This document shows, one piece after another, positions 10,536-28,902 of a stretch of DNA of 64,000 nt (position 1 is the stretch's first letter; every line of letters starts with the position of its first letter). Under the pieces are notes generated by a model. The model was not told where the DNA came from. It saw only the letters and a program-made list of their open reading frames with translations, and did no database searches. The DNA lies in NCBI GenBank assembly GCA_024228115.1, contig JAAETT010000249.1:1-64000 (forward strand), in the 5' to 3' direction. Made by a program: the position numbers and the translations under genes. The DNA is from a bacterium (GTDB taxonomy: Bacteria; Myxococcota_A; UBA9160; UBA6930).

Positions 10536-12440
10536 TCAGTGGTTGGCAGAGGCGTCGACGAACAGCCCGAGTTCGCGCGGAACGTCCCCTTCGACTTGCA
10601 GGCGGAGCAGGTTCGCGTAGAGGCCATCGAGCTCGAGTAGCTCGGCGTGGCTTCCACTCTCGGCCAGCTCACCGCGATCGAGCACGTAGATGCGATCGAC
10701 GTCTTCGATGGTGGAAAGGCGGTGGGCGATCACGAGCGAGGTCTTGCCTTCCATGAGGACATGAATGCCTCGTTGGACCATGGCTTCGGTCTCGGTATCG
10801 ATGGAGCTGGTGGCCTCGTCCAGGACCAGGACATCCCCTCCGTGGGCCAGGGCCCTGGCGAAGGAGAGCAGCTGGCGCTGGCCCGTGGAGAAGTTGGTTC
10901 CGCGCTCCCGAACCTCCGTCTCGTAGCCCTCGGGGAGCGCCGCGATGAAGCGATCGGCTTCGACAGCCGTGGCCGCCGTCTGGATGGCCGGGCGATCGAG
11001 GTCTTCCCGGCCGAGGGCCAGGTTGTCCGCCACGCTCCCGCTGAACAAGAAGACATCCTGCAGCACCATGCCCACCCGGCGCCGCAGCTCGGCCTGGGGG
11101 ATCTCACGCAGATCGACGCCATCGAGCAGGATTCGGCCCCGGCTCACTTCATAGAGACGGGTGAGCAGGTTGATCACAGTCGTCTTCCCTGCACCTGTCG
11201 CCCCGACGAACGCGACCTTTTCGCCCGGGGCCACCTTGAAGGAGACATCCCGAAGCACCCAGTCCTCCTCGCCATCTGCGTTGGAGTACGAGAACCAGAC
11301 GTGGTCGAACTCGATTTCACCCCGCACGGCCGGCGCGGCGCTGCCGGTGACGTGTCGCTCCCAGCCGGGCTCCGGGTCCCGGATCGCCGGCTCCGTATCG
11401 AGCAGCTGAAGGATGCGCTCGATGCTCGCCATCGAGGATTGCATCACCGAGTACTTGGCCGAAAGGTCGCGCAGAGGCATGAAGAAGCGACGCATGTAGT
11501 TGATGAAGAGGTAGATCACGCCGGCGGTAGCCCAACCGGTAGAAGCCCAGATCACCACAGCCACAGTGACGCCACTCGCAAGCTCGACCACCGAAAAGAG
11601 AGCCGAGTCGTACCAGATCGACTTATGCCAGGCGTCCCGATGCGCCCCATTCAAGTCCTCGAAGTCCCGGAGGTTCCGCTCTTCGCGGGTGAAGAGCTGC
11701 ACCACCTTCATCCCGGTCACGGTCTCCTGGATCGTGGCGTTGATGCGCGCCAAGAGCACCCGCGTGCTTCGGAACGCTTCACGCACCTTCAGCCGGAACA
11801 CCACCGCCGCAACGACGAGAAAGGGCACGACGGCGAACGTCCAGAGCGCCAACTTCGCGTTCACCGCGAAGAGCACGACGGCGAAGCCGATCATCTTGAG
11901 GATATCCGTGACCAGAGCCACGAGACCCTGACTGAACATCTCGGCAACGTGTTCGACATCGCTCGTTGCGCGGGTGACGAGCCTTCCCACCGGATAGGTA
12001 TCGAAGAAGCCCAGATGCAGGCCCTGGATGTGGTCGAAGACTTCACGTCGGAGATCGCGCATGGCCGCCTGGCCCGTCGCAACCATCAGCAACAAATGCG
12101 CGTAGGTCAGGACAGAGGACGAAACCGAAACGACGAGAAACAGGCCGGCGAGCCAGACCAGAGGCGGCCAGCCCTCGGGCGCCGTGAGCCATGCGTCGAG
12201 TGGGCCCGAACCGCCCGCTTCCTCGGCAAGCATCACGCGATCGATTCCGGTCTTGACGATCCAGGCCGGCGCCAGCTCCAACGGGAACATCGGCACGACC
12301 ATCAGGATGGTGAGGGCCACCCTCCCCTTGTAGGGCTCCACCCAGGCCCAGAGTCGGCCGAGCAGGACGCGATCGACGGCCTTCCCGAGCAATTCTTCCT
12401 CGAGAATCGCATTCAAACCCGTTCCGCGAGGTGCGCTCAT
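10536..12440 (-). CDS. ABC exporter half-transporter with canonical ATPase site motifs (MdlB-like)
   Basis: A 634-residue inner-membrane exporter half: six membrane helices in the first 340 residues, then a nucleotide-binding domain. Walker A is GATGAGKTT, the signature loop is the variant FSTGQRQLL, and Walker B VLVLDEATSSID keeps the catalytic glutamate. Its start overlaps the stop of the upstream half-transporter by four bases (ATGA), so the two are translationally coupled and almost surely form a heterodimer of the MdlAB/LmrCD/TM287-288 kind. Those exporters move lipids or drugs; the substrate here is unknown. The ICL and coupling regions look intact and there is no frameshift. Confidence 0.88.
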   Translation of the reverse strand: MSAPRGTGLNAILEEELLGKAVDRVLLGRLWAWVEPYKGRVALTILMVVPMFPLELAPAWIVKTGIDRVMLAEEAGGSGPLDAWLTAPEGWPPLVWLAGLFLVVSVSSSVLTYAHLLLMVATGQAAMRDLRREVFDHIQGLHLGFFDTYPVGRLVTRATSDVEHVAEMFSQGLVALVTDILKMIGFAVVLFAVNAKLALWTFAVVPFLVVAAVVFRLKVREAFRSTRVLLARINATIQETVTGMKVVQLFTREERNLRDFEDLNGAHRDAWHKSIWYDSALFSVVELASGVTVAVVIWASTGWATAGVIYLFINYMRRFFMPLRDLSAKYSVMQSSMASIERILQLLDTEPAIRDPEPGWERHVTGSAAPAVRGEIEFDHVWFSYSNADGEEDWVLRDVSFKVAPGEKVAFVGATGAGKTTVINLLTRLYEVSRGRILLDGVDLREIPQAELRRRVGMVLQDVFLFSGSVADNLALGREDLDRPAIQTAATAVEADRFIAALPEGYETEVRERGTNFSTGQRQLLSFARALAHGGDVLVLDEATSSIDTETEAMVQRGIHVLMEGKTSLVIAHRLSTIEDVDRIYVLDRGELAESGSHAELLELDGLYANLLRLQVEGDVPRELGLFVDASANH

Positions 12441-14260
12441 CCGCGGGCCTCGAGAGCCTGAACCTGAGCGGCGCGTTGTTCCATGGCCGCCTGGTCCTGG
12501 GCAAGCCGGGCGTAGAGACCGCCCTCGGCAAGCAGGCTCTCGTGCGTGCCCCGCTCGACGATGCGGCCTTCATCGAGCACGACGATCAAATCCGCATCGC
12601 GCACGGTCGTCACGCGGGAAGCAACGATCACGACAGTACGCCCCTCGAAGACCTCCGACAGGTTCTCCTGGATGGCGGCTTCCGTCTCTGCGTCGACGGC
12701 GGAGAGCGTGTCATCGAGGATCAGGATCGCGGGGTCCAACGCCAGGGCCCGCGCCAGGGCCGTCCGCTGCCGCTGACCGCCAGACAGCATCACACCGCGC
12801 TCGCCCACCACCGTCTCGTAGCGTTCGGGTAACTCGGCAACGTCTTTCGCCAACTGGGCCCGCTCGGCAGCTCGGAGCACTTCTGCCGGCTCGGTAGAAG
12901 CAAGGCCATAGGCGACGTTGTCGGCGAGGGTCATCGAGAACAGGAACGAATCCTGGGGCACGCTGGCGATGCTGCGACGCAACGGGCGCAGCCCGATGTG
13001 GTTCACATCGATGCCATCGACGAAGACGTGCCCGTCCTCGACTTCATAGAGCCGCGGGATGAGCGACGCCAACGTCGTCTTCCCGGCGCCTACCGGGCCC
13101 ACGATGCCCAGCACGCTGCCCGCGGGCACGTGGAGGTTCACATCTCGGAGTGCTGGCTCCCGTTCGCTTCCGGGGTAGCTGAACGTGAGATCGCGAAAAT
13201 CGATCTCTCCCCTTGGATCGACCAGATCGACCGGATCCGCTGGATCGGCGATCGCCGGCTCGGAGGAGAGCACTTCGTCGATGCGCTGAACCGATGCCGT
13301 GCCCCGCTGCACGAGGTTGAAGACCCAACCCATGATGAAGATGGGGAAGGTCAACTCGTAGTTGAACATCGAGAACGTGAAGAACTCGGCGATGGTCATC
13401 TCGTCCGCGGCTACGGCCGCACCGCCGACCAGGAAGATGATCCACATCCCCATCATCGGCAGGAGGCTCGTCACCGCCGGCATGGCACCGTTCACCCGGG
13501 CAACGCGGAGCTGTCGGTGGTAGAGGTCGTCGCAGAGATCGGCGAAGCGTCCGCGGGTGTGGTCTTCCATGGCGTAGGCCTTGACCACGGCGATCCCCGA
13601 GACCGTTTCCTGGAGATGGTTCGACATGTCGGCCAGACCGACCTGCACGGCCAGGTTGCTCGAATGCATGGCGCGCCCGAAAGCCCGCGAAATCAGGATG
13701 AAGAGCGGATACGGGATCAAGACCAACGCGGCGAGCTTCGCATCGAGATAGAACATCGCCGCAAGGGTGGCGCCCACCAGGACGGGCGTCTGAGCCACGG
13801 AGAGGAGCCCGGGCCCGAGCATCAGCCGCACGGACGTCAGATCGTTCACGCAACGGCTCATCAGATCCCCGGTGCGCCAACGGAAGTAGAACGATTGGGG
13901 GAGGCGTTGTAGATGCTCGAAGAGATCGTTGCGCATCTGGTATTCGATCTCTCGGGCCGCGTTGAAGATGCGCACGCGCGAGAAGAACCGGACGCCCGAA
14001 CGGGCAACGGCGACCACGAAGAGCACGGCACAGCGGCGGGCGACCTCCTCCGCAGGCATCCCTTCGGCCAGAGCCTGGACGCACCAGCCGACCGTGACCG
14101 GAAGTGCGACGAAGAAGCCCGCATAGGCGATCGTGGTGAGCACGCCGAGGAGGTAATCCGTCTTGTTGCGCGTCACGTAGTGACGAAGCCGCCGGAACAT
14201 CATGCGACGGTTCCTGGCGATCGTTTCCCTGTCTTGGGAGAAACCCTCGGCGGCGCTCAA
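12437..14260 (-). CDS. ABC exporter half-transporter with degenerate Walker B (MdlA-like)
   Basis: The partner of the following gene: six membrane helices and an ATPase domain with Walker A GPVGAGKTT, signature MLSGGQRQR and Walker B ILILDDTLSAVD. The catalytic Glu after Walker B is Asp here, the hallmark of the degenerate site in heterodimeric exporters, while the partner has the normal Glu. I place the start at the TTG at 14260, whose TTGA overlaps the stop of the glycosyltransferase upstream and gives MSAAEGFSQDRETIARNRR (607 residues). A longer start at 14308 would overlap that gene by 52 bases and add an Arg/Pro-rich lead unlike the family. Confidence 0.87.
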   Translation of the reverse strand: MSAAEGFSQDRETIARNRRMMFRRLRHYVTRNKTDYLLGVLTTIAYAGFFVALPVTVGWCVQALAEGMPAEEVARRCAVLFVVAVARSGVRFFSRVRIFNAAREIEYQMRNDLFEHLQRLPQSFYFRWRTGDLMSRCVNDLTSVRLMLGPGLLSVAQTPVLVGATLAAMFYLDAKLAALVLIPYPLFILISRAFGRAMHSSNLAVQVGLADMSNHLQETVSGIAVVKAYAMEDHTRGRFADLCDDLYHRQLRVARVNGAMPAVTSLLPMMGMWIIFLVGGAAVAADEMTIAEFFTFSMFNYELTFPIFIMGWVFNLVQRGTASVQRIDEVLSSEPAIADPADPVDLVDPRGEIDFRDLTFSYPGSEREPALRDVNLHVPAGSVLGIVGPVGAGKTTLASLIPRLYEVEDGHVFVDGIDVNHIGLRPLRRSIASVPQDSFLFSMTLADNVAYGLASTEPAEVLRAAERAQLAKDVAELPERYETVVGERGVMLSGGQRQRTALARALALDPAILILDDTLSAVDAETEAAIQENLSEVFEGRTVVIVASRVTTVRDADLIVVLDEGRIVERGTHESLLAEGGLYARLAQDQAAMEQRAAQVQALEARG

Positions 14261-18751: not shown

Positions 18752-20665
18752 ATGTTGACCGAACCTTCCCCCATGCCTGGGGAGGAACCCGGGGCTCTGG
18801 CTCCTGGGTCGTTCTCCTCATTCTGGCGCCTGCTCGCCTACGTGCGTCCGTACGTGGGGCTCATGCTGGTCGCCATCCTGGCAGCCCTTGTCTATTCCGG
18901 CGCCCGCACGGGCCGGGCCGTGCTCGTCCAACCGCTCTTCGATGATGTCATCCTGCCGCAGGCTTCGGCTGGCAGCGCACCGGCGCTCGGCGATTGGTTC
19001 GACTCCGCACTCGGCGGCGGAGACGCCAGCGCCCCGGATGCTCTCGCGGAGGCCGAAGCGCCTGGCGGCGATGCGGTCGTCAGCAAGGTCAAGGAGACCC
19101 TGCCACGCATCCTGCTGGCAGCCCTGCTGATCCTGACGCTTCTGCCGATCTCCCATTTCTTCCAGGTCTACCTTGCCGAGACCGTGCTCGGGCGTGTGTT
19201 GGTGGACGTTCAGCGGGATCTCTGTGCGAAGCTGCTCCGCCTTCCCTTGCGCTTCCACCACGGCGTGAGCCGTGGCGACACGCTCTCCCGGGTGATGAAC
19301 GACGCCCAGCGAGCACAGCAATCCCTCGACCTGCTCTTCTCCGATGTCGTCCAGAGCGTGCTCGCGCTGGGCGTAGGTGTCGCGACGTTGCTCTACCTCT
19401 CGTGGCCACTCACGCTCACCCTGGTCGTCGTCGCGCCCCCGGTCGCAGGCGCCATCGCGATCTTCGGCCGTCGCATCCGCAAGAGCGCGCGACGCCGGCA
19501 GCAGAGCCAGGCAGACGTCACCGGGCGGCTCGTCCAGATCCTTGCGGGAATCAAGGTCATCAAAGCCTTCCGTGCCGAGCCGGGCGAGGAACATGCCTTC
19601 GACGAGCACAACCTCCGCTACTACCGCCGAAACCTGAAGGTCGTCAAGAACCGGGCGCTCTCCCGCGCCGTCGTCGAGGCCATTACCAATGCGGCCGGCA
19701 TCGGCGTGCTATTGCTAGGCGTCGCCGTCGTCGCCGGGCAACTTTGGGGCCTCACGGTCGGCTCACTCATGGCTTTCATCGTCGTAATGCAGACGACCTA
19801 CCGGCCCATGAAGGAGATCACCAAGGGCTGGACCAAGCTGCAGGAGGCCATGCCTTCGGCTGAACGCTTCTTCCAACTCCTCGATACCGAGGGCGAGCCG
19901 GCCGACGCGCCGGATGCCGTCCACTTGCCCGCACTGCGCAATGGGATCTCGATCTCCAACCTCTCCTTCTCCTACGGCCGCGAGCCCGTGCTGACGGACC
20001 TCTCCCTGGAGGTCGTGCGCGGCGAGGTCGTTGCCATCGTCGGCCCGACCGGCAGCGGCAAGACCACCCTCGTCGATCTCATCCTGCGTTTCTACGATCC
20101 CGAAGAGGGCCGCATCGAGGTGGATGGCATCGATCTGCGAAACCTGGCGCGCCATTCCTGGCAGGATCGTTGCGCCGTGGTCAGCCAGGATCCATTCCTG
20201 TTCACGGGCAGCATCCGGGAGAACATCCGTTACGGCAGGCCGGACGCGAGTGAGGACGAAGTCCTGGCAGCGGCTCGTGCCGCCCACGTGGAAGAGTTCG
20301 CGAGCGAGCTTCCCGAGGGCTACGAAACGGATGTCGGCGACGCCGGCGTTCGTCTCTCGGGGGGCCAACGCCAGCGCATCACCATCGCCCGGGCCATTCT
20401 TTGCGACCCGGATGTCTTGATCTTCGACGAGGCCACGAGTTCCCTCGATGCCAAGAGCGAGCGCTATGTGCAGGACGCCATCGAAACGCTCCTGGGCGGG
20501 CGAACTGTCTTCATCATTGCACACCGGCTCTCGACCGTTCGACACGCCGACAAGATCCTCGTCCTCGACGGCGGCAAGGTGGCCGACGTAGGCAAGCATG
20601 ATGAGCTGATGGCTCGGGGCGGGCTGTATCGGGAACTGATGACGCTGCAGGGCAGCCCGGGCTAG
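18752..20665 (+). CDS. MsbA-like homodimeric lipid/drug ABC exporter
   Basis: About 637 residues. There are six membrane segments, with an unusual periplasmic Ala/Gly/Asp-rich insertion between the first two (about residues 70-105), and then the ATPase: Walker A GPTGSGKTT, Q-loop SQDPFLF, signature RLSGGQRQR, Walker B VLIFDEATSSLD and H-loop IAHRLST. All catalytic residues are intact, so it can work as a homodimer. The likely role is flipping lipid A-core or another lipid across the inner membrane, given the LPS genes elsewhere in the window. The start is uncertain: GTG 18737, ATG 18752 and TTG 18755 all surround a GGAGGA site at 18745. Its stop codon abuts the stop of the convergent next gene. 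Confidence 0.88.
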   Translation: MLTEPSPMPGEEPGALAPGSFSSFWRLLAYVRPYVGLMLVAILAALVYSGARTGRAVLVQPLFDDVILPQASAGSAPALGDWFDSALGGGDASAPDALAEAEAPGGDAVVSKVKETLPRILLAALLILTLLPISHFFQVYLAETVLGRVLVDVQRDLCAKLLRLPLRFHHGVSRGDTLSRVMNDAQRAQQSLDLLFSDVVQSVLALGVGVATLLYLSWPLTLTLVVVAPPVAGAIAIFGRRIRKSARRRQQSQADVTGRLVQILAGIKVIKAFRAEPGEEHAFDEHNLRYYRRNLKVVKNRALSRAVVEAITNAAGIGVLLLGVAVVAGQLWGLTVGSLMAFIVVMQTTYRPMKEITKGWTKLQEAMPSAERFFQLLDTEGEPADAPDAVHLPALRNGISISNLSFSYGREPVLTDLSLEVVRGEVVAIVGPTGSGKTTLVDLILRFYDPEEGRIEVDGIDLRNLARHSWQDRCAVVSQDPFLFTGSIRENIRYGRPDASEDEVLAAARAAHVEEFASELPEGYETDVGDAGVRLSGGQRQRITIARAILCDPDVLIFDEATSSLDAKSERYVQDAIETLLGGRTVFIIAHRLSTVRHADKILVLDGGKVADVGKHDELMARGGLYRELMTLQGSPG

Positions 20666-21931
20666 CTAGGCCGCCTGGGGGAGAGGCTCCCAGAGATCGA
20701 CGATCTTCCCTCCGCGCACGGCGGCAATCGGGCCGAACTGGAGCATCACGAACTCGCTCTGGGTGGGCCGGAAGAAGACCGTGTCGTCAACGCCGAGATC
20801 GACCTGCCGCGAACCGTTCAACATCTCCTGATTCGTGCTCCGGCCGTAGATGGGATGGGTGACGAGTCCGGGCGGAGATACGGGCTCGGCTTTCCAGTAG
20901 CCGCCGTACAAGAAGAATGTCCGCGCGCGATTCGGATCCCAGAGTTGGTGAAGCGGGCCCAGATCGATGGCGGGGAGCTCAAGGCCCTCCTTGACCTTGA
21001 GAACCGGCGTCCCGATGAAGAGCGCTGGAACATGCTCGGAGAGGGTATCGATATCGAAGTTCAGGGGCTTGACGAGGCCGGAGCCGATTGCGAGTTCGTT
21101 GGAGAGGCCGTCGACGTCGTCCCACAGACGATAGGTGGGGCTACCGGCGGCATTCAAGATCAGATCTTGCTCGCGCCAATCGCCGGCCTGGCTGCGCCAG
21201 GCCTCGAGGAAGCCTCGATAGCGCGCCTCGACGCGCTCGAACTCCCTGGCGCGCACACCCAGGGCTTCGGGAAGCGCCGCGTGCGCGTCGTAGCCCATCA
21301 AACCGCCGAAGCGCAGGTGAGGATCGTCCCGGATGACTGCCAACAGGCGTGCCAATTCCGCAGGACTCCCCATTCCCCCGCGCCGAAGACCCACATCGAT
21401 CTCGACATTGAGGATGAGTTCGAGATTTCGCGCCTCGGCGAGCTCGCGGTACTGCCGCAAGCGCTCCGGGCTATCGATCAGCCATTGGAGCTGGCGCGCG
21501 GGATCGAAGGCACCTGGCCGTAGCCGCTCGTAGAAGCGATTCGCGGCGATCGCCGGCATCGGCTTGCCGAGCAGCAGGTCGGCGCTTGGATGACTCGCAG
21601 CGACCGCGTTCAGGAACGGCTGGTGGAAGACCATGAGTCGCTGGCTTTCGGCTCGTGCCATCACGTAGTCGAGCATCGGCGCACTGGGAAGGGATTTCGC
21701 GACGATTCGGAATGCGCGAGGGCCAAGAGCCCGCCGAACCTCCTCGATATTGGAATCGAGCCGGTCCAGGTCGACAACCAACGTGGGCCGTGCGAGGCCC
21801 TCTCGCTGCAGAGCAGCCGAGAGTTCCAGGAAATAGACCTCGTGTCCGCCCCGCCCGCGGCTCTCCGGGCGAAGCCACCAGAGCCCGGCCGCCGCACCCG
21901 CCGCCGCCAACAAAAAGCTGCGCCGCTTCAT
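20666..21931 (-). CDS. Tat-exported PLP-fold protein of the alanine racemase N / D-threonine aldolase (DSD1) type
   Basis: A 421-residue protein with a twin-arginine signal, MKRRSFLLAAAGAAAGLWWL, so it is exported folded. The body is an alanine-racemase-type barrel: ARPTLVVDLDRLDSNI, then FRIVAKSLPSAPMLDYV with the probable PLP lysine, LILNVEIDVGLRRGG, and LILNAAGSPTYRLW. In DSD1/D-threonine aldolases the C-terminal domain carries a metal site with SEEH and HxC elements. Here the equivalent reads PTQSEFVMLQFG and ends LWEPLPQAA, with no such ligands, so metal-dependent aldolase or dehydratase chemistry is doubtful. ATG 21931 overlaps the flavoprotein's stop (ATGA) and follows GGAG. It closes a three-gene exported redox module. 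Confidence 0.72.
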   Translation of the reverse strand: MKRRSFLLAAAGAAAGLWWLRPESRGRGGHEVYFLELSAALQREGLARPTLVVDLDRLDSNIEEVRRALGPRAFRIVAKSLPSAPMLDYVMARAESQRLMVFHQPFLNAVAASHPSADLLLGKPMPAIAANRFYERLRPGAFDPARQLQWLIDSPERLRQYRELAEARNLELILNVEIDVGLRRGGMGSPAELARLLAVIRDDPHLRFGGLMGYDAHAALPEALGVRAREFERVEARYRGFLEAWRSQAGDWREQDLILNAAGSPTYRLWDDVDGLSNELAIGSGLVKPLNFDIDTLSEHVPALFIGTPVLKVKEGLELPAIDLGPLHQLWDPNRARTFFLYGGYWKAEPVSPPGLVTHPIYGRSTNQEMLNGSRQVDLGVDDTVFFRPTQSEFVMLQFGPIAAVRGGKIVDLWEPLPQAA

Positions 21932-23367
21932 GAAGTCTCCTCCCATGCCGGGCTCCGGGTCACGCCGAAGACGGACCGGAGGTGTTCATTGAGCATCCGG
22001 CCCTTCGGATCGAGGCTCTCTCGCACGGCCAGGAAATCCTTCCAGCGGGGGTAGAGCTGAGCCAGGCTCTCGGAGGTCTGGGTATGCAGCTTGCCCCAAT
22101 GAGGCCGGCCTTCGTACTTCCGGAACACGCGCTCCATCGCATTGAAGTAGGGGCGATACTCCTCGTCCGCGAACTGGTGGATCGAGATCGTGCAGCCATC
22201 CCGCTCATGGAACATGCTGAGCCAACTATCATCCCGTTGGACGTACCGATACTCGATCGGGAAAATCACGGGGATTCCCTTGCGCCGAATCGTGTCGAGG
22301 ATTTCCCGAAGACAATCGGGCCCCGCGTCGGACGGCACGGTGTACTCCATCTCGCGAAAGCGAGAGATGCGCACGTGGGTCAAGACCTGGAAGGATGGCC
22401 CGCTGCGGACGATGGACTCGGCGCCCCCGAGGTCGGAGACGATGCTCTCGTAGAGCCGGCTTCCCAGCAGAGGCACGCCACCGACCTTGCGATAAGCGTC
22501 GCGGAGGGCCTGGATCGGGTCCTCCTCGACAGGAAACTCCGGCGTGGGCTCATGGCGTCCCTCGTCCGTCGCAATGACCATCGCCGCGCCGGTATGCGGA
22601 AAGGCGTAGAATTCGAAGTGGCGATGCCGCTTGCGTCGATCCTCGATCTCATCCAACACATCCTCCAGGATCTCGAACGAGGTGGTCTCGGTGAGATCGA
22701 AGGGTCGTTGGTTCTGCAGTGTCATTCGGCTCACGACACCAAGCGCGCCCAACGAGCAGCGAGCGGCCTGAAAGATCTCCGGGTTCTGATCGAAGCTGCA
22801 TTCGATGAGATCGCCAGCGGGCGTCGCCAGCGTCAACGCCTGCAGCGTGCTCGAAAGCGAGCCGAAGGCCGGGCCCGTCCCATGGGTCGATGTCGCGACG
22901 GCTCCACCCAGGGCCTGGTACGCGATATCGGGAAGGTTCGGCATGGCCTGCCCCACGGCCTGGAGGGCGGGGCCGAGCTGATGAAGCCGGGTGCCCGCCC
23001 AGACCTCGGCCTGGAGGCGCTCCGTATCCGCGCTCACGACCCCACTCATCAGATCGCAGGCGACCAGCGTGCCGTCGCTGGGAACCAATGGGCTGAAGGA
23101 ATGCCCCGCGCCGACCGGACGAATCACACCGGGTGCCGTTCGAAGAAGATCAGCCAAGGCCGCCTCGTTCGTGGGGGCACCGCGCAGGGCGGACCGGCAG
23201 CCCTGGTTGGCAGCCCAATTTCGCCAGGGCAGGGCTTCACCGGAATGGTAGGCGGGAAGGTTTTCCGAGGCCGGCCCCAAGCTCGTCCTGCGGCAAGCCG
23301 GAAGCAGACCGGTTCCCGCCGCAACGAGTGCCGCGTGGAGAAGCTCCCGTCGCGTGGTCGCTCTCAT
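21928..23367 (-). CDS. FAD-binding oxidoreductase, D-arabinono/L-gulono-1,4-lactone oxidase family, Tat lipoprotein
   Basis: A 479-residue aldonolactone-oxidoreductase-type flavoprotein. After a Tat-like signal (MRATTRRELLHAALVAAG) with a lipobox-like LLPAC comes WRNWAANQGCRS and the FAD-binding PVGAGHSFSPL (about 70-80), then GGAVATSTHGTG. The C-terminal ALO domain ends with PHWGKLHTQ, where the HWGK motif holds conserved active-site residues, and DPKGRMLNEHLRSVFG. It probably sits on the outer face of the inner membrane or in the periplasm and oxidises a sugar lactone or alcohol. The cytochrome c5 gene directly upstream (four-base overlap) suggests electrons go to that cytochrome rather than to oxygen. 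ATG 23367 is used; the longer frame from 23706 is antisense-like sequence of the cytochrome gene. Confidence 0.83.
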   Translation of the reverse strand: MRATTRRELLHAALVAAGTGLLPACRRTSLGPASENLPAYHSGEALPWRNWAANQGCRSALRGAPTNEAALADLLRTAPGVIRPVGAGHSFSPLVPSDGTLVACDLMSGVVSADTERLQAEVWAGTRLHQLGPALQAVGQAMPNLPDIAYQALGGAVATSTHGTGPAFGSLSSTLQALTLATPAGDLIECSFDQNPEIFQAARCSLGALGVVSRMTLQNQRPFDLTETTSFEILEDVLDEIEDRRKRHRHFEFYAFPHTGAAMVIATDEGRHEPTPEFPVEEDPIQALRDAYRKVGGVPLLGSRLYESIVSDLGGAESIVRSGPSFQVLTHVRISRFREMEYTVPSDAGPDCLREILDTIRRKGIPVIFPIEYRYVQRDDSWLSMFHERDGCTISIHQFADEEYRPYFNAMERVFRKYEGRPHWGKLHTQTSESLAQLYPRWKDFLAVRESLDPKGRMLNEHLRSVFGVTRSPAWEETS

Positions 23368-23726
23368 TCTTCGCGGGCCGGGGGAATTCCGGCCAGGAAG
23401 GCCACGAGATGCCGAAGCTCCTCTTCCGTACAAAAGCTGCAGGTACCGAGAGGAGGCATCCCAAACCAGCCGTCCACGGTGTTGGCGAGGAGTTGGTCGA
23501 GCCCCTTGGCCCGACGCGCTTGCCATTCGGTCTCGCCCCCGACCACCGGAACCCCGATGCCCGGCTGGGTATGACATTCGGCGCAGATCTGTTGGAAGAC
23601 CTGAGCCTCTCGAGCCGTCAGGGCGCTCGCAACCGAAGCTCCTCCCCATCCGGAGGAACTGACTCCGACAAGCATCAGGCCTGCGAGCATCCAGCCCCGC
23701 GACCATGCATTCGACATCGCGTCCAT
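23364..23726 (-). CDS. Exported c-type cytochrome, cytochrome c5-like
   Basis: A 120-residue precursor with an N-terminal signal (SRGWMLAGLMLVGVSSSGWG) and one heme site CAECH near residue 48. The distal methionine is in GWFGMPPLG, followed by CSFC, the extra cysteine pair that marks the cytochrome c5 group. It would be a periplasmic one-electron carrier. It overlaps the lactone-oxidoreductase-like gene and starts one base after the GHMP kinase stop, so it is the natural electron acceptor of that flavoprotein. Confidence 0.87.
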   Translation of the reverse strand: MDAMSNAWSRGWMLAGLMLVGVSSSGWGGASVASALTAREAQVFQQICAECHTQPGIGVPVVGGETEWQARRAKGLDQLLANTVDGWFGMPPLGTCSFCTEEELRHLVAFLAGIPPAREE

Positions 23727-23727
23727 G

Positions 23728-24795
23728 CTAACCCACAGCCTCGTCCGAGGGACGTTCGCTACCGAGATTCAACGGCAGGCAGGTCACGCCCTCTTCTTCC
23801 TCCAGTCTGCGAGCCAGCTCCTCGCGTGCCCGATCATCACGGGCCAACACCTGGGCCGAGCCGTCCCCTTGAGAACCGATCCCCTTGGCACCAAGGCCGA
23901 GTTCGGCAACGGCGGGATGGGCCAGGATTTCGTGCAAGCGCGGAGAGCGGAGCTCTTCGCTGGCGGGTGCCACGGCCTCGTCGAAGCACGCCTGGGCTTC
24001 AGTGAGACAAGCGCCCAGGCCAACCGGGTCGCCGACTTCGATCGCGCGGCGCCCTTCCGCCACCAGCTGGGCGTTCGCCTCCCCGAGACCCTCCCGAACC
24101 CGACGCGCCAAGGCTCCCTCCGTGTCCGGAAAACAAGCGTTGAGGTCGGAGAGGATTCGACGCGTGTCCTTGCCCCGACGGAGGTCGACGATCAAGAAGT
24201 GGAATGCGGCACCGGGTTCCACGACTTCGGCCTCCAGATCAGCGCCATCGAAAACGAGGGAAGTGATCTGGCGACCATAGGCGCAGATCTGATCCATGCG
24301 TCCGCATTCCGAACCCGTGCGGCGTTCCCCGGCGTAGGCGAGATCCATCTCGGCATCCAGATCGAGGCCGAGCTCATAGGCTTCCGAATACGCCCGAGCC
24401 AACAAGACGCAGACGGCGGCCGACGAAGACAAACCCTTGCGAACAGGGAGATCGGATTGGACTCGTAGGCGAAGGCCGCCGACCTGGAACCGCTCGATCG
24501 CCTCTGCCGCAACGCCAGCCGCGTAGCTGAAGAAATCGGCACCGGCAGCGGCGGCAGCCAACGCCGAGGCCGTGGCCTGGATTCGTGCCGGCCCCATCTC
24601 TTCGCCGTGGGGCAGGATGCTCTCGATCTCGAGGGCACCCGCGATCGGCCGGGCTTCTGCGCGAAGGCCCTGGTCGGTGCCCGCAACAAGACAATGACCG
24701 CGCGAGATCCCCGGATCGGTGGATCGGTAGCCTGCCGCCCAATCGGAATGCTCTCCCATGAGACACAGCCGCCCGGGCACGAATAGCGAGTTCAA
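23728..24795 (-). CDS. GHMP-family sugar kinase (galactokinase-like)
   Basis: A 355-residue small-molecule kinase. It begins LFVPGRLCLMGEHSDW, matching the galactokinase GR-NLIGEHTDY signature, and continues with GLSSSAAVCVLLARAY, the GHMP phosphate-binding loop (about 135-150). GSECGRMDQICAYG resembles the galactokinase substrate helix with its catalytic Asp, and GLGAKGIGSQGDGSAQVLA is the third glycine-rich motif. The phosphorylated sugar is unknown. Lying between a GT4 glycosyltransferase and the redox module, it could serve LPS sugar activation. Start and stop overlap the neighbours closely (four and one-base arrangement). Confidence 0.78.
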   Translation of the reverse strand: MNSLFVPGRLCLMGEHSDWAAGYRSTDPGISRGHCLVAGTDQGLRAEARPIAGALEIESILPHGEEMGPARIQATASALAAAAAGADFFSYAAGVAAEAIERFQVGGLRLRVQSDLPVRKGLSSSAAVCVLLARAYSEAYELGLDLDAEMDLAYAGERRTGSECGRMDQICAYGRQITSLVFDGADLEAEVVEPGAAFHFLIVDLRRGKDTRRILSDLNACFPDTEGALARRVREGLGEANAQLVAEGRRAIEVGDPVGLGACLTEAQACFDEAVAPASEELRSPRLHEILAHPAVAELGLGAKGIGSQGDGSAQVLARDDRAREELARRLEEEEGVTCLPLNLGSERPSDEAVG

Positions 24796-25931
24796 GCAAG
24801 CGCCTCGCGGTAGAGCACCTCGACCTCGTCGGCCAATCGTTCCGGCGTGAAACAGGCTTCGGCCCGCTTTCGCGCCTCGGCGCCGAAAGCCCGCCGTTTC
24901 TCGTCATCATCGAGGAGCGCTTGCCAGCCGTCCGCCAAGGCCACCGGATCGTCGGGCACGAGCAGGCCCGTCTTCCTGTCCACCACGATTTCGGGCAACG
25001 CTCCGCGGCGTAGCGTGACAGCGGGAATGCCCGCGGCCGCAGCTTCCAGGAGCGCACGACAGGTACCGTCGCTCCCCGGCACGAGGAAGGTGAAGACATC
25101 CATGCTGCGCAGAACGTCCGCGTAGTCCTCGCGGCGGTAGCCTGCGAACACGACCCGATCCTCCAATCCCATCCGCCGAGCCGGTTCCTCGGCCAGTTCG
25201 GAGCGCCGGGTCCCTCGACCGATCACGAGCAGGCGGAATGCGGGATCGCGATCGGCTTGAAGCCGCGCTGCCTCGAGAAGCAGATCGAAGCGACGATGGG
25301 GCTGCACGCGGGCGACGATCCCCACGACGTGGTGCTCGGGGGCCAGCCCGAGCGCGCGTCGCAGATCTGCATCCGGGGCGACAGGGCGAAAGCGATCCAC
25401 GTCGACCGCCCCGAACACCCCACGGATCGCGCGACCGCGGCGCAAGGCGCGATTGCTTCGTGCTGTTTCAGGAGAAACGCACAGCAGCCCATCCGTCCGC
25501 GCGCCATACAACCAACGATTCCACGGGCGATCCGCGATCTGCTCAGCGATGCGGTAGGAGCGAACCACGGCCGGGCGCCCCGAAATGGAGCGCCGCCCCG
25601 CGGCGCGCAACGCAAGAACGTGATCCCGGGTATGCCAGGTATGGACGAGTTCGATTCCGTGCTCGTCGATCAAGCCCCGCAACGCGCGAATCGTGGGAAG
25701 ATCCGAGAGGGGCCTCACACCGCGGCCGCGTGGCAACTCCAGAGAAGGGATCCATCCGAGCTTTCGCGCTTCGCTGCCGACCGAACGATCGGCGCTCTCC
25801 GGCGCCGACGGACATGCCAGCCACACCTGATGACCACGTGCCCGCTGACCTTCCGCCAGACGAAGCATCGGTTCCGCCGGCCCGGTCCATTTCCAATCGC
25901 TCGTCAGCTGAAGCACCCGGAGCGGGGACAC
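24792..25931 (-). CDS. Glycosyltransferase family 4
   Basis: A 379-residue GT-B transferase. The N-terminal domain starts RVLQLTSDWKWTGPAEPMLR with ELVHTWHTRDHVLAL. The C-terminal GT4 domain shows HHVVGIVARVQPHRRFDLLL, FRLLVIGRGTRR, DRVVFAGYRREDYADVL and the donor-binding EAAAAGIPAVTLRRGALPEI. It probably adds a sugar from an NDP donor to an LPS or glycolipid acceptor at the inner membrane. Coupled by one base to the GT2 gene upstream and four bases to the kinase downstream, it belongs to the same envelope-sugar transcript. Confidence 0.85.
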   Translation of the reverse strand: MSPLRVLQLTSDWKWTGPAEPMLRLAEGQRARGHQVWLACPSAPESADRSVGSEARKLGWIPSLELPRGRGVRPLSDLPTIRALRGLIDEHGIELVHTWHTRDHVLALRAAGRRSISGRPAVVRSYRIAEQIADRPWNRWLYGARTDGLLCVSPETARSNRALRRGRAIRGVFGAVDVDRFRPVAPDADLRRALGLAPEHHVVGIVARVQPHRRFDLLLEAARLQADRDPAFRLLVIGRGTRRSELAEEPARRMGLEDRVVFAGYRREDYADVLRSMDVFTFLVPGSDGTCRALLEAAAAGIPAVTLRRGALPEIVVDRKTGLLVPDDPVALADGWQALLDDDEKRRAFGAEARKRAEACFTPERLADEVEVLYREALA

Positions 25932-26752
25932 TATTCCGACCGCCTCGCTTTGCCAGCATCTTGCGCTTCTTCATCGGCCCCGAGATGGTCGAATTCCCAT
26001 TGCTTGGCGTACTTCAGGAAGACGTGAAAGGCCGTGGCCGCGGCGATGATGAAGCCGGGCACTCCGTCCCGGAAACCCTGCTTGAGAATGAAGGCACGCA
26101 GGAAGCGTGTCGGTGGCCGAAGGATCATGTCGCGGAGGGCATGGCGGCGGCCGCGTCCCAGATTGGCCCTGGCCTGGATGCTGCTGAAATCCTGGATGCG
26201 ATCGACCTGATCCGCCAGATCCCGATAGCTCCAATGATAGGCCTCGCCGCTGAACCGTCCCTGGCTTCCGATCCCAGCCGTGAGCTCGACCCGACCATGC
26301 GGATTCGTGCCGACCCAGCGGCCGGCCCCGTTTCGGAAGACACGGAGCTGCCAATCCGGAAAAAACTCGCCGTGCCGGATCCAGCGACCCAGATGCCAAG
26401 TCACCCGGTTGATCTCCATGCCCACGACGCCTTCTGCGCCGCCTGCGAGAAACGCCTTCAGCTCTGCCGCCAGCGGATCGCTGAGTGCCTCGTCGGCATC
26501 GAGAGCCAGCACCCACTCCGCCTGGACCTGACCCAGTGCAAAGTTCTTCTGCTCGATATTCCCATCATACGCGCGCAGAATCGTCTTCGCGCCGGCCTCG
26601 CTTGCCAGTTTTTCGGTGGCGTCCCGGCTGCGATCGTCCACGACTACGACGATCTCATCCGCGAACGCAACGGAGGCGAGACAACGGGGGAGATCCCGCT
26701 CCTCGTTGCAGGCGATGATGCAAACACTGAGCTTCGGACGAGGGACGTTCAC
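25931..26752 (-). CDS. Glycosyltransferase family 2, WaaE/KdtX-like
   Basis: A 273-residue GT-A enzyme: LSVCIIACNEERDLPRCLAS at the start, DEIVVVVDDRSRDAT, the DxD motif VLALDADEALS near 80-90, and W..G...GEFFPDWQLRVFR in the middle. This layout matches the LPS beta-glucosyl/heptosyl transferases of the WaaE/KdtX group. The C-terminal part has an amphipathic or membrane-associating PGFIIAAATAFHVFLKYAK segment. It starts within the rel stop codon region (four-base overlap), tying LPS sugar transfer to the stringent-response gene. Confidence 0.85.
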   Translation of the reverse strand: MNVPRPKLSVCIIACNEERDLPRCLASVAFADEIVVVVDDRSRDATEKLASEAGAKTILRAYDGNIEQKNFALGQVQAEWVLALDADEALSDPLAAELKAFLAGGAEGVVGMEINRVTWHLGRWIRHGEFFPDWQLRVFRNGAGRWVGTNPHGRVELTAGIGSQGRFSGEAYHWSYRDLADQVDRIQDFSSIQARANLGRGRRHALRDMILRPPTRFLRAFILKQGFRDGVPGFIIAAATAFHVFLKYAKQWEFDHLGADEEAQDAGKARRSE

Positions 26753-28902
26753 GAGCGCACACGCTCGACGGCCAGAACACCCTTTACCTTCTGGATATCC
26801 TTCATCATCTGACGCAGCGTCGTCACATCACCGACCCAGAGATCGAAAGTCTGGGTCGCCGTCGTATCGTCATGCGTATCGATGCGCGCCGAGCCGATGT
26901 TGATTCCGGCCGCAGAAATCGTCTTGGTCACCTTGGCCAGAAGTCCCGGCGCATCCCGCGAGGTGACCTTGATGCGAATGCGCCGCTTGATATCCGAGGC
27001 TTCTTCCCACTCGACATCGATACAACGCTCCTTGTCGAGCTCGAAGGCAACCCGGCACTCTCGGGCGTGGATGGTGACGCCGCGACCGCGGGTCACGAAA
27101 CCGATGATCTCATCGCCGGGGAGCGGCGAGCAACACTGACCAAAGCGCACCAACACGTCGCCATGGCCGTCGACCCTGATTCCGGAACCACTGGTTTTGG
27201 GCTCCCTGCGGAAGAGATCGCGGAGCTTTCTCCCCTTGGTCACCTCCTCCGTCGGCGTTGTCTCCAGCTCTGGCCGAAGCATCTCGAGCACGGCCCGGGG
27301 AGAGACGCGTCCGTAGCCGACCGCAGCAAACAGATCCTCCACGCCGCCCTTGACAAAACGAACGACCACCGGCTCGAGTTCCCCACTCTCCAGCACGCGA
27401 GCCAGGGAGACTCCGGCCTTGCGCAGCTCTCGCTCGAGGATTCCGCGGCCGAGCTCGCGACTGCGTTCGTTCTCGGCCAGGCGTACGGCGTGGCGGATGC
27501 GGCTCTTCGCCTTGCCCGAGACGACGAATTCGAGCCAATCCTTCTTGGGTGCCTGGTTCGGGTTGGTCATCACCTCGACCGTGTCACCACTCTCGAGCTC
27601 ACGGGAGAGAGGCCGCATGGTTCCGCTCACCTTCGCGCCGGAGCAATGGTCGCCGACCTCGCTATGGATGGCGTAGGCAAAATCCAGGGCCGTCGAACCG
27701 CGGGGCAGGTTGATCACATCGCCGTTCGGCGTGAAGATGAAGACCTCGTCCGCGAACAGATCCACCTTGACCGTATCCAGGAACTCGTGCGGATCGTCGA
27801 GCTCCTGCTGACGCTCCAGGAGTTGCCGCAGCCAGTTGAAGTTCTCGTCGTCCTGTTCGCGCCCGCCGTGACCCTTGTAGCGCCAATGAGCGGCGATCCC
27901 GAACTCGGCGTGGAGATGCATGTCTTCGGTTCGAAGCTGAACCTCGATGCGCTCGCCGTAGGGCCCGATCACCGTGGTATGCAGGGATTTGTATCCATTG
28001 GCTTTCGGGAGGGCGACGTAGTCCTTGAAACGACCCGGAACCGGAGGCCAGGTCGAATGCACGAGACCGAGCGCGGCATAGACCTGCTCGGTGCCGCCTT
28101 CCAAGACGATCCGAAAAGCGATCACGTCATAGATCTGGTCGAGGCTCAAACCCTGGTCGGCCATCTTCCCATGGATCGAAGCCATGTCCTTGAGACGACC
28201 CGAGACCACGCCGGAGAGGTCGGCCTCCTCGAGCGCCTTGGCCATGATGCCCTTGACCTCTTCGATGTAGCGCTCGCGCTCGTCGCTTCTTCCCCGAAGC
28301 ATGCGCTCGAACTCGATGACGACATCCGGGTGCAGGGTTCGAAAGGACAGATCCGCGAGCTCGCGCTTCATCCAATCGATGCCAAGCCGATGGGCCAGGG
28401 GCACGTAGATGTCGAGAGTCTCCTGGGCGATGACCTGTGCCTTCGCCTGCGGCATGAAATGAAGTGTCCGCATGTTGTGGATGCGATCAGCGAGCTTGAT
28501 CAGCAAGATACGGATGTCCTTCGACATCGCGACGAGCATCTTGCGAAAATTCTCTGCCTGACGCGCGCGAGCCGAACGAAACTGGACCTTCGAGATCTTC
28601 GTCAGGCCCTCTACCAGGAACGCCACCTCCTCCCCGAAGAGCCGCCTGATCTCCTCGAGACTTGCGAGCGTATCCTCCACCGTGTCATGCAGGAGGCCGG
28701 CGACGATCGTCACCTCGTCGAGCCGCATGTCGACCAGGATGCCCGCCACCTCGAGTGGGTGGATCAGATAGGGCTCGCCCGATAGGCGCTCCTGTCCCTC
28801 GTGAACCTTTGCCGTGAAGACATAGGCCCGCTGCAAGAGTTCGAGATCGCACTCCGAGTCATACTCGAGCACGCGATCGGCGATGTCGTTGAAGCGCAGC
28901 AT
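26749..28902 (-). CDS. rel: Bifunctional (p)ppGpp synthetase/hydrolase
   Basis: A 717-residue stringent-response enzyme. The HD hydrolase domain is intact, with HPLEVAGIL and GLLHDTVEDT (His-Asp at 72-73) and NMRTLHFMPQAK. The synthetase domain has RFKDYVALPKANGYKSLH, the RxKD form found in bifunctional Rel/SpoT rather than the ExDD of dedicated RelA, and AEFGIAAHWRYKGHG. A TGS domain (VFIFTPNGDVINLPRGSTAL) and a C-terminal ACT domain (about 640-717) complete it. It should both make and degrade (p)ppGpp. 164 bases separate it from gmk upstream, where rpoZ often lies; none is seen here. Confidence 0.95.
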   Translation of the reverse strand: MLRFNDIADRVLEYDSECDLELLQRAYVFTAKVHEGQERLSGEPYLIHPLEVAGILVDMRLDEVTIVAGLLHDTVEDTLASLEEIRRLFGEEVAFLVEGLTKISKVQFRSARARQAENFRKMLVAMSKDIRILLIKLADRIHNMRTLHFMPQAKAQVIAQETLDIYVPLAHRLGIDWMKRELADLSFRTLHPDVVIEFERMLRGRSDERERYIEEVKGIMAKALEEADLSGVVSGRLKDMASIHGKMADQGLSLDQIYDVIAFRIVLEGGTEQVYAALGLVHSTWPPVPGRFKDYVALPKANGYKSLHTTVIGPYGERIEVQLRTEDMHLHAEFGIAAHWRYKGHGGREQDDENFNWLRQLLERQQELDDPHEFLDTVKVDLFADEVFIFTPNGDVINLPRGSTALDFAYAIHSEVGDHCSGAKVSGTMRPLSRELESGDTVEVMTNPNQAPKKDWLEFVVSGKAKSRIRHAVRLAENERSRELGRGILERELRKAGVSLARVLESGELEPVVVRFVKGGVEDLFAAVGYGRVSPRAVLEMLRPELETTPTEEVTKGRKLRDLFRREPKTSGSGIRVDGHGDVLVRFGQCCSPLPGDEIIGFVTRGRGVTIHARECRVAFELDKERCIDVEWEEASDIKRRIRIKVTSRDAPGLLAKVTKTISAAGINIGSARIDTHDDTTATQTFDLWVGDVTTLRQMMKDIQKVKGVLAVERVRS

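Follow-up and report, generated by a model that had tools for sequence, protein, structure and literature searches.

An SphBCD unit from Myxococcota and its putative role in sphingoid base oxidation

Does a compact, predicted exported redox unit in a Myxococcota genome represent a new pathway, and what might it oxidise? The question is raised by three overlapping genes on the minus strand of a 64,000-nucleotide stretch of DNA (contig JAAETT010000249.1 of assembly GCA_024228115.1, positions 1 to 64,000; hereafter the window), which occupy window positions 20666-23726 and encode, in order of transcription, a cytochrome c5 (23726-23364), an aldonolactone-oxidase-family flavoprotein (23367-21928) and a protein with a pyridoxal phosphate (PLP)-type fold (21931-20666). 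An initial annotation, made from the sequence alone, had described them as an exported oxidation module and as the best candidate for an undescribed pathway in the window. Coordinates, Pfam and NCBIfam assignments and PDB matches confirm the three overlapping genes and their families. The gene cluster turns out to have been described already: the arrangement is that of sphBCD (PMC3900636, PMC11893366), and the trio is a Myxococcota member of the known SphBCD unit. An apparently unknown oxidation unit is thereby tied to a published, chemically unsolved operon, whose range is extended to Myxococcota.

Correspondence with the Pseudomonas sphBCD operon

The decisive link to sphBCD is provided by Pseudomonas aeruginosa, because there the trio lies beside sphR: the genome record lists a cytochrome c5, a D-arabinono-1,4-lactone oxidase and a DSD1-family enzyme, in this order, between pyrE and sphR. 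With this operon, P. aeruginosa clears sphingosine, an antimicrobial lipid. The genes (PA5328-PA5326) were named sphBCD in 2014, and sphingosine induces the operon through SphR (PMC3900636); growth in the presence of sphingosine, sphinganine and phytosphingosine depends on sphB and sphC, as does the disappearance of sphingosine (PMC11893366, 2025). Aligned with P. aeruginosa SphB over 113 columns, the window cytochrome shows 31.9% identity; the flavoprotein reaches 43.1% with SphC over 457 columns and the PLP protein 48.9% with SphD over 415 columns, values that point to homology, strict orthology being a stronger claim than they carry. The two loci also agree in the three families, their order, their tight spacing and a twin-arginine translocation (Tat) leader on SphC and, if the frame is read upstream of the annotated start, on SphD. 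For SphC, Tat export has been shown experimentally, and its annotated start was found to be wrong (PMC6085387); the main text of that paper leaves SphD (PA5326) unnamed. An in-frame twin-arginine leader, VNRRKFMFAGLGAGALLAGAAAW, precedes the SphD start annotated for P. aeruginosa (locus L112, 5914-6000); this start is probably misannotated in the way reported for SphC.

To collect relatives, an alignment of the PLP protein was scanned against 84,980 species genomes, and 393 relatives were confirmed; locus counts refer to the best 80 of these 393. The features of the window trio are as follows.

23364-23726, minus strand: SphB-like cytochrome c5 with a Sec signal, one CxxCH haem site and no lipobox (Pfam, PDB match, alignment)
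23571-23585, minus strand: haem-binding CAECH, residues 48-52 (CxxCH invariant in 8 relatives)
23430-23441, minus strand: CSFC, residues 96-99, a cytochrome c5-type Cys pair (both Cys invariant)
23364-23367, minus strand: 4-bp overlap of cytochrome stop and flavoprotein start (open reading frame coordinates)
21928-23367, minus strand: SphC-like flavoprotein, FAD_binding_4 plus ALO, TIGR01679 family (Pfam, NCBIfam, fold match)
23293-23367, minus strand: Tat-lipoprotein-type leader MRATTRRELLHAALVAAGTGLLPAC, residues 1-25 (RR and Cys25 invariant in 8 relatives)
23101-23103, minus strand: His89 of GHSF, predicted site of covalent flavin adenine dinucleotide (FAD) (89/89 aligned family members)
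22930-22932, minus strand: Pro146, at the position of the oxygen gatekeeper Ala113 of L-galactonolactone dehydrogenase (GLDH) (alignment to the A113G variant 8qnc)
22246-22254, minus strand: Glu372-x-Arg374 (ExR), predicted catalytic pair (90/90; also in the alditol oxidase alignment)
22090-22092, minus strand: Lys426 of PHWGK, predicted catalytic Lys (90/90)
21928-21931, minus strand: 4-bp overlap of flavoprotein stop and PLP-protein start (open reading frame coordinates)
20666-21931, minus strand: SphD-like protein of alanine-racemase/D-threonine-aldolase fold, fold type III (Pfam, model, fold match)
21866-21931, minus strand: Tat-type leader MKRRSFLLAAAGAAAGLWWLRP, residues 1-22, possibly an uncleaved anchor (RR leader in 76/80 relatives)
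21695-21697, minus strand: Lys79, predicted PLP Schiff-base lysine (90/90)
21380-21382, minus strand: Arg184, aligned with Arg157 of D-threonine aldolase, which contacts the substrate carboxylate (90/90)
20753-20770, minus strand: RPTQSE, residues 388-393, replacing the metal-binding PGHCD of BhcC and His347/Asp349 of D-threonine aldolase (alignment)

The cytochrome (120 residues, with a Sec-type signal) belongs to Pfam Cytochrome_CBB3, has a cytochrome c5 as its top PDB match and carries a single CxxCH together with the Cys pair typical of that class. The flavoprotein (479 residues) scores 447 bits against NCBIfam TIGR01679 (bact_FAD_ox; cut-off 292) and combines FAD_binding_4 with ALO, the composition of VAO-family aldonolactone oxidoreductases; activity on an aldonolactone is putative. 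Its leader, of the pattern TRRELL...LLPAC, fits a Tat lipoprotein, and by a simple motif rule an RR leader recurs in 69 of 75 flavoprotein relatives. The PLP protein (421 residues; Pfam Ala_racemase_N) yields an AlphaFold model with a mean predicted local distance difference test (pLDDT) score of 92, whose nearest structural matches are 3-hydroxy-D-aspartate aldolase BhcC and D-threonine aldolase (Foldseek, E about 6e-21); the same genome has three further Ala_racemase_N genes. It begins with MKRRSFLL and a hydrophobic stretch, and an RR leader with such a stretch is found in 76 of the 80 SphD proteins under a simple motif rule, which predicts export of SphD like that of SphC. TatC is encoded in the same genome, as found by genome search. 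At the level of sequence signals, the initial annotation thus stands in describing one exported redox unit that includes a cytochrome and has Tat leaders on its other two proteins.

The site of lipid anchoring differs between the two units: in the window SphC has a lipobox and SphB lacks one, whereas P. aeruginosa SphB is a predicted lipoprotein. The swap is clear for this pair, but as a general rule a clean exchange of the anchor between SphB and SphC had to be rejected, since a simple rule returned 29 SphB-only, 5 SphC-only, 3 double and 16 anchorless cases.

Distribution and joint inheritance

How widely is the arrangement kept? The flavoprotein gene lies in the flank of 75 SphD loci and the cytochrome gene as well in 53, so that the survey of the three families proposed in the initial annotation did find them together. 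The three genes share one strand and, wherever read, one order, and no further gene around the SphD loci is conserved to a similar extent. This arrangement is not due to chance, because the gene order is kept across many phylogenetically spread loci. Carriers include Gammaproteobacteria (Pseudomonas, Nevskiaceae, Halieaceae, Dyella), Alphaproteobacteria, Myxococcota metagenome-assembled genomes (MAGs) and one MAG labelled Verrucomicrobia. Lineages fall into broadly the same groups in the trees of SphC and SphD, and this agreement argues for a long joint inheritance of the two proteins and for an old unit. The trio of the Verrucomicrobia-labelled MAG (L036) groups with Nevskia in both trees; its label is doubtful, and the MAG may be mislabelled or contaminated, or the trio recently transferred.

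Many other trio loci among the best 80 rule out that the trio is unique to the window. Nor is it universal in the window's order, in which SphD occurs in 7 of 80 genomes. Within the order, the contiguous trio is confined to the window's genus (three of five genomes); five others carry the cytochrome-flavoprotein pair without an adjoining SphD gene, and the PLP gene also occurs alone. Alcanivorax and its relatives keep flavoprotein and PLP protein with no adjoining cytochrome gene, and 17 of the Alcanivoracaceae SphC-SphD loci (L034-L099) have in common a conserved upstream gene of about 490 aa, which we presume to be UbiD-type. A DUF819 family gene, whose product is a possible transporter partner, adjoins sphD in Ruegeria pomeroyi (L111, 7204-8349) and sphC in Yoonia (L114, 11621-12787).

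Substrate and electron acceptor

What might such a unit oxidise? The initial annotation put sugar lactones forward as candidate substrates; the published Pseudomonas work points to sphingosine instead, with direct action of SphC on it being putative. We infer, with some reservation, that the SphBCD unit probably oxidises a sphingoid base outside the inner membrane and delivers the electrons to SphB. In this scenario a lipid anchor would keep SphC outside the inner membrane, where the enzyme would oxidise an alcohol group of the sphingoid base (a sphingosine-like 2-amino-1,3-diol) and transfer the hydride to covalent FAD, whereupon SphB would take up the electrons from SphC and relay them to the respiratory chain. 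The alditol oxidase-type catalytic residues (ExR, HWGK and the GHSF His) are conserved in SphC. The position attacked might further be C1 (CH2OH), which SphC would oxidise first to the aldehyde and then to the carboxylate. Sphingoid bases in nature have the (2S,3R) configuration; by our own derivation from the Cahn-Ingold-Prelog rules, the C1 acid would be (2R,3R), a D-configured allo-type beta-hydroxy-alpha-amino acid, because oxidation of C1 to the acid reverses the C1/C3 priority at C2 while the geometry is unchanged. A fold-III D-type aldolase would be the expected partner for such an acid, and this would explain both the fold of SphD and its invariant carboxylate-binding Arg. PLP Lys59 and Arg157 of D-threonine aldolase, the latter of which binds the substrate carboxylate (PMC4401734), are both matched in SphD (Lys79 and Arg184). 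The idea of two steps, oxidation and aldolase, has been proposed before (PMC3900636); to it we would add an argument from stereochemistry, oxidation as far as the acid, and export of SphD. Conceivably, the unit would serve in detoxifying, or in feeding on, lipids that eukaryotes or other bacteria release. By analogy with the phenotype known in Pseudomonas, the trio would be a putative requirement for growth with, or removal of, sphingosine in this uncultured organism. The proposed route, if true, would be common to Pseudomonadota and Myxococcota and differ from the eukaryotic kinase/sphingosine-1-phosphate-lyase route, a prospect that we still regard as doubtful.

Several observations weigh against sphingoid base oxidation as outlined. 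In P. aeruginosa sphD is dispensable; direct action of SphC on sphingosine was left open by the Pseudomonas authors, who found no product; complementation for Caulobacter crescentus sphBC was not significant, and deletion of sphBC in P. fluorescens WCS365 gave no phenotype (PMC11893366). Docking to AxDTA favoured (2R,3S) and not the (2R,3R) configuration expected here (PMC4401734). The metal ligands His347 and Asp349 of D-threonine aldolase are replaced by Gln391 and Glu393 in window SphD, and its base His193 faces a gap in the SphD profile alignment. Pro146 weakens the case for exclusive cytochrome use by SphC. Finally, inspection of the neighbourhood showed that neither sphR nor sphA adjoins the window trio, unlike in Pseudomonas, and a genome search, run without a positive control, returned no match to SphA. 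We treat control by SphR and a nearby SphA porin as a lineage trait of Pseudomonas only, and as non-defining for the SphBCD unit.

The residues of SphD deserve closer consideration. The initial annotation had noted that the PLP protein lacks the aldolase metal ligands, which can now be refined to His to Gln and Asp to Glu replacements, kept among 87 non-actinobacterial family members (Q in 86, E in 86). His217 lies three residues past the stacking Tyr, against six for the aldolase base His. It is present in most SphD lineages, the window included, and is Phe in P. aeruginosa as in all 27 Pseudomonas sequences. Because Pseudomonas SphD has Phe where most lineages have His217, the dispensability of sphD may not carry over to other lineages.

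Might the flavoprotein act on sugars after all? It could be an aldonolactone or alditol dehydrogenase that acts on extracytoplasmic sugars with cytochrome c5 as acceptor, the PLP protein acting on something else. Its membership in Pfam ALO and TIGR01679 would accord with this, as would the nearest folds of its model, an ancestral GLDH and alditol oxidases, and the report that the M. tuberculosis enzyme takes gulonolactone and cytochrome c (PMC11505616). Family names, however, show fold-level similarity only, and the window flavoprotein is 43% identical to P. aeruginosa SphC as opposed to 34% to the mycobacterial type. Moreover, SphD is co-localised in 75 of the 80 loci, and no recurring sugar-pathway gene surrounds them. 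We therefore consider a sugar substrate unlikely. It is also conceivable that the target of the unit is a different amino alcohol or beta-hydroxy D-amino acid of the periplasm, such as one from cell-wall or peptide turnover, in which case Pseudomonas would remove sphingosine indirectly or as a side effect. Small alcohols and D-amino acids are handled by the families to which SphC and SphD belong, uncultured environmental bacteria with no known contact with sphingolipids carry the trio, and the direct product eluded the Pseudomonas authors (PMC11893366). Yet the Pseudomonas operon belongs to the sphingosine/SphR regulon (PMC3900636), and without it sphingosine, sphinganine and phytosphingosine become inhibitory (PMC11893366), which renders another substrate quite improbable to us.

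Does a sphingoid base-oxidising SphC pass its electrons to the cytochrome or to oxygen? Across the SphC family the gatekeeper is Pro in 47, Ala in 28, Gly in 9 and Ser in 5 sequences; it is Pro in the window and in every Myxococcota relative, as opposed to Ala in P. aeruginosa SphC. With Ala or Ser, in the Pseudomonas-Nevskia clade, the cytochrome is present in 32 of 32 cases; with Gly it is present in none of nine. Eighteen Pro-type loci, nearly all from Alcanivoracaceae, are without a cytochrome gene. That the gatekeeper follows the cytochrome partner is suggestive, with three independent contrasts only and p about 0.25, which is not significant. Gly or Pro at this position is typical of oxidases (PMC11505616), and together with the Pro-type loci devoid of cytochrome it would suit a SphC that is mainly an oxygen-using oxidase yielding hydrogen peroxide, the cytochrome being secondary. 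Against this, every close relative examined in the order whose upstream region is present has a cytochrome gene tightly linked to that for SphC, and complementation in P. aeruginosa, with its Ala gatekeeper, needs sphB together with sphC (PMC11893366). An oxidase of this kind thus appears very unlikely.

Neighbourhood and comparison with known systems

The genes that directly precede the trio on the minus strand (23728-28902) are one GHMP-kinase-like gene, two glycosyltransferase-like genes and one RelA/SpoT-like gene. In its longest open reading frame the GHMP-kinase-like gene has a TTG start. Because its stop lies one base from the cytochrome start, these genes and the trio may be on one transcript. 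A functional tie of the trio to the kinase and glycosyltransferase genes is unsupported, a relative of the same genus (L009) having different neighbours. Three MsbA-like ATP-binding cassette (ABC) exporter genes are found inside 10 kb (10536-14203, minus strand, and 18752-20665, plus strand), the last of which is convergent with the trio and abuts its 3' end. A ceramidase in the genome was considered as support; the single weak domain match (37 bits), in a protein without evident signal, is not used.

How does the unit compare with other known systems? The parallel to Rv1769 and Rv1771 drawn in the initial annotation holds in part. A Mycobacterium riyadhense plasmid carries genes for a PLP protein, an M28 peptidase and a lactone oxidase, arranged like Rv1769-Rv1770-Rv1771, and in Arthrobacter and Tsukamurella the genes for a PLP protein and a flavoprotein form an overlapping pair; as in the window, a PLP protein is encoded with a lactone-oxidase-family flavoprotein. 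These mycobacterial and other actinobacterial units are, however, more distant than sphBCD: they have no cytochrome, no Tat leaders and Gly at the gatekeeper, and their PLP protein is 27% identical to that of the window, with an RHTKAGE-type motif in place of RPTQSE. SLC23/NCS2-family permease genes adjoin or lie near the PLP-lactone oxidase pair in Tsukamurella (L110, 6362-7612) and Arthrobacter (L109, 8035-9489), and may give a clue to what the actinobacterial version acts on.

D-threonine aldolase and BhcC share with SphD the fold, the PLP Lys, the carboxylate-binding Arg and the stacking Tyr; they differ in retaining the metal His/Asp, which are Gln/Glu in SphD, and a base His in place, whereas SphD is predicted to be exported. 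GLDH and alditol oxidase (AldO), in turn, share with SphC the VAO-type fold, the ExR motif and the Lys, at an identity of 24-28%. What sets SphC apart from them is its predicted nature as a Tat lipoprotein with a dedicated cytochrome gene and, relative to the GLDH compared, its GHSF His.

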